The notes beneath the pieces were generated by a model that saw only the letters and a list, made by a program, of their open reading frames with translations, was not told where the DNA came from and made no database searches. 23,669 bases of DNA from a virus. Shown piece after piece: positions 2,911 to 18,335 of this stretch; positions within the stretch are counted from its first letter, which is position 1; every line of letters begins with the position of its first letter. Made by a program: the position numbers and the translations under genes. Where the stretch lies: the IMG/VR virus record IMGVR_UViG_3300037246_000456, positions 1 to 23,669 of that record; one strand, given 5' to 3'.

Positions 2911-3561
2911 CTACGTGTTTAGTAATGCGTCTTCGGAATAGTACGCGCGGATCGCATCTTCCTCGACCTGTGGCGTGATCAAAACCACTCTCTCCTGCCA
3001 GAGCATGTGCCTGCGGGAGATGTTGGGCAAGTGGGTTGGTGGCGTAATGCCGAATGCTGTCAAGATCGTGTTGACCGAGTTGACGTAGTCAGAGAACGGC
3101 ATCGCGTTCATACCGGGGATCGTCAGCCAATCAACTTGCTTGCGCCACGTTGAATACTTCACACCGTTGATGCCATTCTCGTTGGCAACCACGGTGTCAG
3201 CCAGGATGGCACTCGCGTCCCAGTCGGTGCTCGGTAATGCCAGTTGGTACATCGACTTGAACCGAGACACCGGGTCACGAATCATGCAGAAATTCTGGTA
3301 ACTGTTGTACTGAGCCAACGTGAGAACGCCACTGTCAATCGCTTCCTGCGGCGTAAGATGCGCTCGCGCTAGGCCTGGAGTTCCATTCGGATGGTCTGGG
3401 ATGCCGCTGGCATTGTGGCTAGACGGATAGAAATACTCTTGGGCCATGACGTCTTGCGTTTCATCGAGACCTCCCAGCAGCCGTATGAGCGTGTCAACCG
3501 TGGTGGAGCCGGTGCGCGGGATCTTCCAAAAGCAGAGCTGCTTGCTGTGTGAAATTATCAT
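2911..3561 (-). CDS. Sulfotransferase family protein
   Basis: Sulfotransferases move a sulfuryl group from PAPS to a hydroxyl or amine acceptor, often a glycan. This 216-residue protein has both cofactor signatures: a 5'-phosphosulfate-binding loop KIPRTGSTT at 13-21 and a 3'-phosphate-binding block MIRDPVSRFKSMY at 93-105 with R95 and S99. A RAHLTPQEA segment at 66-74 matches the carbohydrate sulfotransferase (Sulfotransfer_2-like) group. The C-terminus has the usual Tyr/Asp-rich helix (DAIRAYYSEDALL). There is no signal or membrane segment, so it should act in the cytoplasm. It starts within TAATG after the unknown gene and lies between the fibre and lysis genes. The acceptor is unknown. 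Confidence 0.85.
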   Translation of the reverse strand: MIISHSKQLCFWKIPRTGSTTVDTLIRLLGGLDETQDVMAQEYFYPSSHNASGIPDHPNGTPGLARAHLTPQEAIDSGVLTLAQYNSYQNFCMIRDPVSRFKSMYQLALPSTDWDASAILADTVVANENGINGVKYSTWRKQVDWLTIPGMNAMPFSDYVNSVNTILTAFGITPPTHLPNISRRHMLWQERVVLITPQVEEDAIRAYYSEDALLNT

Positions 3562-7549: not shown

Positions 7550-8620
7550 CTACCTCGTGTACGGTGAAATGTTAGGACGCAGGTACACTTCAGACTCATC
7601 GGTCTCACCTGTCCATGCGTCGTCTAAATAAGTTTTTGCATCAAGGTCCAGTCGAGGAATGATGATCTCGTCCACCTCTTTAATCTCTCTGCCCATTTGT
7701 GCCGCCAAGTTGCAAACGATAGCGAGGTACCAACGGTCAGGAACCTCCAGCTCATCGGTCATCACACCCACGTCTTGCAGTTGCCGCTGCACGAAACCGG
7801 TAACCTGATTGAACGTAAACTCTGCTCCAGGGTTAGGCCAAAGCTCGATCTCCGGTTGCGTACGTTGCTTGTCGTACCAGAACTGCGTCGGTCTGCCAGT
7901 GCTCGCTTTGTCAGGCAGGTTTGCGTAGTCGTTCCGATTCAGTTTGTACATCGGAATTTCATTCGGCTTGTTGCCGTAGAACAGCTCGATGACATCGAGC
8001 ACCGTGGTGCCGGTAGCGCGAAGTCGATACGCATCGAAGTCGTTGACGCCTCCCAGCACACCCTGCACGTCCACCCAGAGCCACTCGTTGATGACGACTG
8101 CCTGACCTGTTCGCGTGAGAAGTGTCGTCGCGGTCACGAAGTTATCGTTCGAGCCTTCGATCACGTAGTCCCAGTCGCCAGAGACGTTGGGCATGATGCC
8201 GAAAGTACTCACGTTGGTGGCACTGTCGAGCGCCATGGAGATGGTTCCAAGAGCAGCGAGCTGCGTGCACGCTGTCGTCAGGTCACTGTCAAAGGCATTG
8301 CCCGCGACTCCTTCCGATGCAGTTGCAGTCCCCGTGATCCGCTGCAGGTTGCGCAGGTTGATGGTGTAGGTGTCCACGGTACCGAGAGGACACGGCACAG
8401 TGGCCTGACGCTCGTAGATCGGCAGCAAGAGTGGGATGACGTTCCACAGCTTGATGCCTTTGTTGACCAGCGTCTGCGTCCACAACCACAGCATGTCGAG
8501 AGCAATCGTAATGTGCTCCCCGGTGATCTCTTGCTCAACCATTTTGCAACGACGGAACGCGTGATCGATGATCTGCTGGTTCCGAAAGATTGTGCTACCG
8601 ACTGTTCCTGATGTTGGCAT
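7550..8620 (-). CDS. Adaptor/nozzle-type tail protein with discoidin-like insert
   Basis: A 356-residue protein of the podovirus adaptor or nozzle type, proteins that extend the portal and hold packaged DNA. An N-terminal helical region (about 10-55) and a C-terminal half (about 216-340, with GRPTQFWYDKQ, EIELWPNP and a DELEVPDRWYLAIVCNLA helix) match what I know of such proteins. Between them, about residues 97-206, lies an extra beta domain with FDSDLTTACTQ, DWDYVIEGSNDNF, EWLWVDV and YRLRATG, which resembles F5/8-type C (discoidin) carbohydrate-binding domains. GGAGG lies six bases before the ATG, within the -1 frame extension upstream (TAATG overlap). Exact virion position is inferred. 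Confidence 0.78.
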   Translation of the reverse strand: MPTSGTVGSTIFRNQQIIDHAFRRCKMVEQEITGEHITIALDMLWLWTQTLVNKGIKLWNVIPLLLPIYERQATVPCPLGTVDTYTINLRNLQRITGTATASEGVAGNAFDSDLTTACTQLAALGTISMALDSATNVSTFGIMPNVSGDWDYVIEGSNDNFVTATTLLTRTGQAVVINEWLWVDVQGVLGGVNDFDAYRLRATGTTVLDVIELFYGNKPNEIPMYKLNRNDYANLPDKASTGRPTQFWYDKQRTQPEIELWPNPGAEFTFNQVTGFVQRQLQDVGVMTDELEVPDRWYLAIVCNLAAQMGREIKEVDEIIIPRLDLDAKTYLDDAWTGETDESEVYLRPNISPYTR

Positions 8621-8760
8621 TAGAAGCCTCCGCCACGCACTCTGCTACGCCCACCACGAGGCCGCGTCCCGTGACCCTTCGGTCTCGGGGACCTGACGTG
8701 ACGGTCCATTACTTTCTCGGCGACTCGCTTAGCGACCTTTTCTACAGAGCCGCCCCGGCT
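8620..8760 (-). CDS. -1 frame continuation of the GG-V protein
   Basis: This frame has no convincing start of its own and is entered by a -1 slip at the A AAA AAA site at 8766-8760. It encodes 46 residues beginning SRGGSVEKVAKRV, repeating the GGSV motif of frame 0, and ending in an Arg/Gly-rich tail. A fused product would be about 278 residues. Three facts argue it is really translated: it keeps the basic GG-V composition, its TAA overlaps the next gene's ATG as TAATG, and the GGAGG serving that next gene lies in its last codons. If the true sequence has eight A, frames simply join without any recoding. Confidence 0.6.
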   Translation of the reverse strand, partial: SRGGSVEKVAKRVAEKVMDRHVRSPRPKGHGTRPRGGRSRVRGGGF

Positions 8761-8766
8761 TTTTTT
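8719..8766 (-). other. Candidate -1 ribosomal frameshift signal
   Basis: The heptamer A AAA AAA fits the X XXY YYZ pattern in frame 0. Five bases later GGCGGC (8754-8749) can pair with GUCGCC (8724-8719), six pairs including one G-U. A small inner hairpin (UCGC and GCGA around UAA, 8735-8725) abuts the 3' arm. Spacing and structure are what a -1 stimulator usually needs. The frame-0 TAG lies at 8744-8742 inside the structured region. Pairing is judged by eye. Confidence 0.5.
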
Positions 8767-9455
8767 ACTACGCCTCCTGAGGCGTAACCTACGCTGCCTC
8801 CCTTGCACTTGACGTTTTTCGGCATGCCTTTCCTCGAAGCAGCAGTACCCGCTTTCTCAGGTGCCTTCATCTTCCTACTGCGCTTCAGCACTTGCTTTAC
8901 TCTCACGAAAGCAGCGTCAGCCAGAGCGCCACCACCAGAGTCCTCCCTACCCTTCATGTAGCCGCCCTTCTTCAGGCCCGGTTTCAATCGCTTCGTGCCA
9001 CCAGCTTCGATCTCGGCCTGGTTACGACCACGACGTGCAGGCTGATTACCCGTATCCATGGTCTTCTGCTTGCCGCGTGTCATCTTGAACTGACCAGAGG
9101 TGTTGCTCTCCTGCACACGACCACCGTACGCGTAGCCCATCTTTGCGCCTTCGCTTTTAAGTTTGTCGTGCACACTGCCGCCCTTCATCTTTGGCATGCT
9201 GATCGTGACATCATCGACCACGATCTCACGATCTTGACCCAGCTTACCCATAGGACCACCTATGAGACCACCCATTTGCTTCTTCACCGGACCACCTTTC
9301 GCCTTGACAGTTGCCGGGAAGCCCTTACGGGACTTTCCTTTCACGTGTCCACCGCGCATGTAGCCGCTAACTTTGTGCACGCCTGCAGAGCCGGTGAAGC
9401 CCTGTTCCGCCGGGAAAGTAAATTCCCCGTACGTTAATCCTACGTTCTTACCCAT
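8742..9455 (-). CDS. Basic Gly/Lys-rich GG-V repeat protein, frame 0
   Basis: A 237-residue, very basic protein built around recurring GG-hydrophobic motifs (RGGHV, KGGPV, KGGSV, YGGRV, KKGGYM, KGGSVGYASGGVV). Similar low-complexity proteins occur in marine phages; DNA binding or an internal virion role is possible but unproven. I choose the second ATG (9455), six bases after AGGAG; the first in-frame ATG at 9461 directly abuts the AGGAG. Near its end lies a run of seven A (8766-8760) in frame as GTA AAA AAA, after which frame 0 stops within five codons. The -1 frame continues the motif for 46 more codons, so this product is probably either the short form of a frameshifted pair or the result of a one-base sequence error. 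Confidence 0.75.
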   Translation of the reverse strand: MGKNVGLTYGEFTFPAEQGFTGSAGVHKVSGYMRGGHVKGKSRKGFPATVKAKGGPVKKQMGGLIGGPMGKLGQDREIVVDDVTISMPKMKGGSVHDKLKSEGAKMGYAYGGRVQESNTSGQFKMTRGKQKTMDTGNQPARRGRNQAEIEAGGTKRLKPGLKKGGYMKGREDSGGGALADAAFVRVKQVLKRSRKMKAPEKAGTAASRKGMPKNVKCKGGSVGYASGGVVKKAGAAL

Positions 9456-9464
9456 CGTCATCTC

Positions 9465-18137: not shown

Positions 18138-18335
18138 TTAGGTCTCGTCTTCTGCTTCACCAACTACTTCATTGAACAACTGCTCGGCGCGACACAGACC
18201 ATGATAAGTTCCGCTTGCTTCACCGTATCCGAAAGCTGATTTGTCTTTCGGTGTCGCGAGCAAGACGATGCATCCGGCCTGTTCCTCTTTCAGCCTCTGA
18301 AGATATTTTTTTAAAACAACGTCTTCGGCGGACAT
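18138..18335 (-). CDS. Hypothetical protein, 65 residues
   Basis: A short mixed-charge protein with an N-terminal amphipathic helix (about residues 4-18), a central hydrophobic strand CIVLLATP and an acidic C-terminus. I do not recognise the family. It lies 12 bases after the preceding gene and six bases before the GroES-like gene, in the same orientation. Its ribosome-binding site is weak. Confidence rests on tight packing and protein-like composition. Confidence 0.65.
   Translation of the reverse strand: MSAEDVVLKKYLQRLKEEQAGCIVLLATPKDKSAFGYGEASGTYHGLCRAEQLFNEVVGEAEDET

Follow-up and report, generated by a model that had tools for sequence, protein, structure and literature searches.

Highly probable programmed -1 ribosomal frameshifting in a late gene next to the tail adaptor in a clade of uncultivated tailed phages

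The window analysed here, i.e., the whole 23,669-nt (23.7-kb) stretch of an IMG/VR virus record, carries its late genes on the minus strand, and a terminase, a portal, a major head protein and a tail adaptor are recognisable among them. A Gly/Lys-rich ORF of 237 or 239 aa is flanked by a 94-aa ORF on one side and by the adaptor gene on the other. The features of this locus are as follows.

8742..9461, minus strand: frame-0 ORF for a basic, Gly/Lys-rich GGxV-repeat protein (239 aa; pI 10.5)
8773..8778, minus strand: SD-like AGGAGG, six nt upstream of the heptamer (anti-SD duplex of -10.3 kcal/mol)
8760..8766, minus strand: slippery heptamer A_AAA_AAA, which each of 37 other contigs either keeps or replaces with a different canonical heptamer
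8747..8754, minus strand: 5' arm of a predicted stem (GGCGGCUC), five nt after the heptamer
8742..8744, minus strand: frame-0 stop UAG, which the -1 frame maintains through GTA followed by G
8719..8726, minus strand: 3' arm of the predicted stem (GAGUCGCC), with a GTC codon invariant in 11/11
8620..8760, minus strand: -1-frame extension of 46 codons plus UAA, a basic C-terminal module with an H-x3-PRPKGHG motif
7550..8620, minus strand: next gene, a 356-aa "tail adaptor" homologue, whose start overlaps the extension stop as TAATG

Two ATG codons might serve as the start of the frame-0 ORF. The first of them (9461) yields a short form of 239 aa and a long form of 280 aa; the second (9455) is better placed, corresponds to the start in most homologues and gives 237 and 278 aa, which are exactly the sizes named in the original prediction. 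The frame-0 protein is basic and probably disordered, as far as a model can tell: its AlphaFold prediction is unconfident (mean pLDDT of 45), which fits disorder, but would equally be expected from a thin alignment. No family match was found for it in Pfam, PHROGs or the PDB, nor did we find any relative among the isolate phages or the bacterial and archaeal genomes searched. Gene position, basic charge and repeats suggest that the protein may be "virion-like". Two other proteins of the window also deserve a comment. The model of the adaptor homologue (7550-8620) includes a discoidin/CBM32-like (carbohydrate-binding) beta-sandwich set between helical regions (Foldseek E of about 1e-7), while the ORF at 582-1061 ends C-terminally with a long Pro-Glu repeat of the PEPEPEPEP type.

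Frame 0 terminates with the codons GTA AAA AAA GCC GGG GCG GCT CTG TAG, so that UAG lies five codons after A_AAA_AAA. After a slip at the heptamer, the -1 frame reads AGC CGG GGC GGC TCT GTA and onwards for 46 codons (SRGGSVEKVAKRVAEKVMDRHVRSPRPKGHGTRPRGGRSRVRGGGF) until the TAATG junction, where one A is common to the extension stop and the ATG of the next gene at 8620. The GGSV motif is encountered twice, as KGGSVGY upstream and as RGGSVEK in the extension. All these elements, namely the distance to the frame-0 stop, the open -1 frame with its junction and the repeated motif, had been predicted and were read in the minus-strand sequence as described. The 46-aa basic peptide of the extension had no match in Pfam at E<=1, including any Ig-like domain. 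Strongly shift-prone in-frame heptamers (A7, GGGAAAA and GGGAAAG) are rare in the window, occurring only four times in the 7,436 codons of its genes. A second in-frame A7 (18306-18312, minus strand) is situated near the start of a 65-aa ORF (18335-18138), and the -1 frame closes there after 28 codons.

The original prediction proposed looking for the same break in related phages. The first protein search retrieved 18 relatives; 15 of them possessed both A7 and the -1 extension, while the other three (L010, L016 and L017) had neither. Later searches with the extension and alignments gave 37 IMG/VR contigs besides the window, diverged from one another, and the break was present in every one. Each carries a canonical X_XXY_YYZ heptamer in the zero frame, within the overlap of the two ORFs and 0, 3 or 15 nt before the frame-0 UAG. 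Four types of heptamer were observed: A_AAA_AAA (in most contigs), A_AAA_AAG (L062), G_GGA_AAA (L063) and G_GGA_AAG (L073, L080 and the distant L110). The extension of close relatives is 38-51 residues long. Keeping in mind the rarity of such heptamers in the genes of the window, the presence of one within 15 nt of the stop in 38/38 contigs excludes chance. Codon usage points in the same direction: Lys-Lys pairs at the slip sites are encoded by AAAAAA in 21/22 cases (AAAAAG in the remaining one), compared with 11/89 for the other Lys-Lys pairs of the same genes, where A7 was found in 0/89; the associated p = 3e-9 is inflated by relatedness. A signal kept in dozens of relatives is indicative of a real control element, not of a sequencing error.

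A maximum-likelihood tree built on the adaptor protein recovered a single, fully supported clade comprising five loci without the extension and 24 with the frameshift, inside which the type of heptamer varied. The extension was lost at least four separate times in this main clade, with the heptamer lost each time, although recombination might change these counts, as the tree was built on the neighbouring gene. Loci without the extension are likewise without the heptamer (L010/L016/L017, L068, L076, L095 and L082-L084). In L068, a leftover of the extension end (GAGGAGCGAGCTACTAATG) is found at 2640-2660, and the heptamer and the rest of the extension have apparently been deleted. The module bearing the H-x3-P-x-P-x-G-H-G motif forms the in-frame C-terminus of a gene upstream of the adaptor in outgroups L102, L103, L104, L111 and L114, which matched the extension profile with E from 2.5e-11 to 8.6e-6; L103 also matched the frame-0 profile (4.8e-14). 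A second, distant clade contains L110, with GGGAAAG located directly before UAG. L085/L086 from the distant clade (frame-0 stop at 3426) carry the extension module behind CAAAAUAG only, with no canonical heptamer; judging by the sequence, a single-tRNA shift at this place is conceivable, or the site might be a weakened one. According to the original prediction, homologues with one uninterrupted frame and no slippery run would speak for an error. Uninterrupted homologues do exist, but only as the distant outgroups with the in-frame module, while the broken frame prevails in the window's own clade and is apparently its ancestral state.

Both the short and the long products seem to be under selection. 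In the extension, median dN/dS was 0.11 in group 1 and 0.16 in group 2, i.e., it evolves under purifying selection. Downstream of the frame-0 stop, variation in the -1 frame is greatest at third codon positions, both in group 1 (34/39 vs. 22/39 and 12/39) and in group 2 (26/36 vs. 8/36 and 7/36). As for the short product, the frame-0 UAG arises in all relatives analysed where a -1-frame codon, either GTA or ATA, stands before a G, and 11/11 group-1 rows use GTA for the Val at codon 6 of the extension. In the genes of the window, GTA accounts for 80/522 Val codons (15%) and ATA for 42/420 Ile codons (10%). Synonymous changes would destroy the UAG, yet it is kept, which suggests selection for the short product; the rows counted here are related sequences, not independent events.

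These data also bear on two other ways to explain a conserved -1 frame. It might be a separate small gene, translated from its own start (the ATG of VMDRH) or by reinitiation after the UAG, and an ATG is indeed present at VMDRH in most copies. However, this ATG is replaced by CTG in L063 and by GTG in L066, and protein-level conservation of the -1 frame extends to the codons that follow the heptamer and precede this ATG. In several loci (L063, L080, L069 and L008), the -1 ORF opens a mere 3-21 nt ahead of the heptamer and contains no start codon preceding the conserved region, which leaves the frame-0 gene as the sole entry. Taken together with the in-frame fusion of the module in the outgroups, the missing starts led us to reject a separate gene, and we consider it extremely unlikely. 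Alternatively, the extension could be a relic of an ancestral in-frame tail that was thrown out of frame and decayed. The in-frame tail of the outgroups and the loss of the extension in some relatives agree with such a scenario, but it is hardly compatible with the low dN/dS of the -1 frame and with heptamer turnover that always leaves a shift-prone site; we therefore give decay scarcely any credence.

The break might also be an artefact or the result of RNA polymerase activity. The original prediction held open a single A missing from the assembly, which would make the gene one ORF of 278-280 aa. Homopolymers are error-prone, and the outgroups do have the module in frame. Nevertheless, the break occurs in 37 other diverged contigs with four types of heptamer, and codon choice maintains the frame-0 stop. 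Independent assemblies of relatives so widely diverged could not credibly share one assembly error, and the missing A was thus rejected, its probability being practically nil. Transcriptional slippage, in which RNA polymerase would add an A to A7 and ordinary translation would give the long form, deserves slightly more attention, since A7 is a homopolymer and longer A runs have been reported to slip (PMC5009743, PMC3711429). The reported runs are longer than the one here (An with n>7; runs of nine), and the heptamers are invariably in the X_XXY_YYZ register. Moreover, the corresponding site in relatives reads GGGAAAA or GGGAAAG, where no base is repeated more than four times in a row. As these sequences do the job in relatives, slippage of the polymerase is very unlikely; indeed, the G_GGA_AAR heptamers are explained neither by a missing A nor by slippage on an A run. 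From these sequence patterns, we infer that the slipping agent would be the ribosome and not RNA polymerase.

Several sequence elements around the heptamer might stimulate ribosomal slippage. The anti-SD duplex of the window falls into the top 1% of in-gene positions. Among relatives, the SD duplex had a mean energy of -7.7 kcal/mol, while the other positions in the genes averaged -3.7 kcal/mol and those matched for Gly-Gly averaged -6.5 kcal/mol; the signal is partly a product of Gly-Gly codons, and the relatives' values are non-independent. On the 3' side, the prediction of a stem beginning five bases after the slip run was borne out by folding. Such stems start five nt after the heptamer in group 1 and L061, six in group 2 and seven in L067/L062. 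The arms are paired in 95% of cells in group 1, compared with 25-47.5% when slid, and in 89% in group 2, compared with 38-49%. Compensatory changes were absent from group 1, and group 2 had only two such cells, both at a single pair; for most of group 1, the stem energy was nothing unusual when compared with synonymous shuffles. Because of this scarce covariation and the ordinary energies, we grade the stimulatory downstream stem only as likely.

Overall, programmed -1 ribosomal frameshifting at A_AAA_AAA is very probably the event that joins the two frames. The original prediction placed such an event outside the tail-chaperone genes, and it is supported by the conserved heptamer and stop, the constrained extension, the coupled loss of heptamer and extension, and the in-frame outgroups. 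We suppose that the majority of ribosomes would stop at the UAG, releasing the short basic protein, while a fraction would re-pair one base back on A_AAA_AAA. The slip would presumably be aided by the SD-like sequence 6-7 nt upstream and by the stem 5-7 nt downstream. Shifted ribosomes would continue in the -1 frame and add the conserved, arginine-rich 46-residue module; the predicted trans-frame peptide of the long form spans ...VVKKSRGGSVEK.

What the two products might do is a more speculative matter. By analogy, the gene could encode a disordered repeat protein that belongs to the virion or takes part in assembly, made beside the head-tail adaptor, with the extension serving as a tether on some copies; we regard this as a plausible supposition, with the odds slightly against it. 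Somewhat more doubtful is the idea of a new two-isoform class of phage proteins, i.e., disordered, basic GG-repeat virion or assembly proteins in which -1 frameshifting supplies a set share of the copies with the conserved H-x3-P-x-P-x-G-H-G module; such a class would be frameshifted in one large uncultivated clade and fused in frame in the outgroups. The extension lacks a start codon of its own in many copies, and thus ordinary gene callers are expected to miss it, leaving it absent from protein sets across this phage clade. The natural series described here, with its four heptamers, three stop spacings, losses and in-frame outgroups, lends itself to studying how frameshift sites originate, change and disappear.

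GGGAAAG, used by some relatives here, is the frameshift heptamer of phage lambda, which makes for a likeness to the lambda G/GT tail assembly chaperone. The -1 shift of lambda G/GT likewise takes place close to the end of a late gene and yields two forms, one short and one long (PMC5009743). Unlike G/GT, the gene described here precedes a head-tail adaptor homologue and not a tape-measure gene (none was found in a PHROGs scan of 18 window proteins), and its product is Gly/Lys-rich, predicted to be disordered and without a PHROG match. With the adaptor as the next gene and no PHROG or Pfam match to chaperone families, assignment to G/GT was rejected. In phage genomes surveyed in the PRFect study, tail chaperones dominate frameshift genes (PMC10885494). 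According to a review, -1 shifts occur both in tail chaperones and in coat proteins, the latter gaining Ig-like or other extensions, the Ig-like ones being a mix of in-frame and frameshifted forms, as is the case here (PMC5009743). The coat frameshifts of T7/T3 gene 10A/10B, Lactobacillus phage A2 and Listeria A118/A500 (PMC5009743) resemble our case in placing a C-terminal extension on some copies; however, our gene does not encode a coat protein, and its 46-aa basic module is without a Pfam or Ig-like match, which ruled out the Ig-like type of extension. The class of transcriptional slippage sites was also dismissed, the run here being A7 at most, with GGGAAAA/GGGAAAG in relatives. The E. 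coli dnaX cassette (PMC3711429, PMC5009743) has an A-rich heptamer as well, together with an SD-like element upstream and a hairpin downstream, the counterparts of the putative stimulators here, but its shift yields a shorter product, while the shift here yields a longer one. No report of this gene family was found in the literature searched, mostly papers outside subscription; the case is a further member of the C-terminus-adding -1 frameshifts already known from phages, and it brings one more gene family to the few that shift frame in phages beyond tail chaperones and coat proteins. Finally, CsoS2A/CsoS2B of alpha-carboxysomes is, on paper, a similar design: a disordered, repetitive scaffold with a C-terminus added by frameshifting, which tethers the scaffold to a shell (PMC10484944). 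The resemblance drawn here is one of design, and any such role of the phage protein is suggested by analogy. If the two-isoform class is real, it would represent a phage counterpart of the CsoS2 pair of short and long scaffolds.
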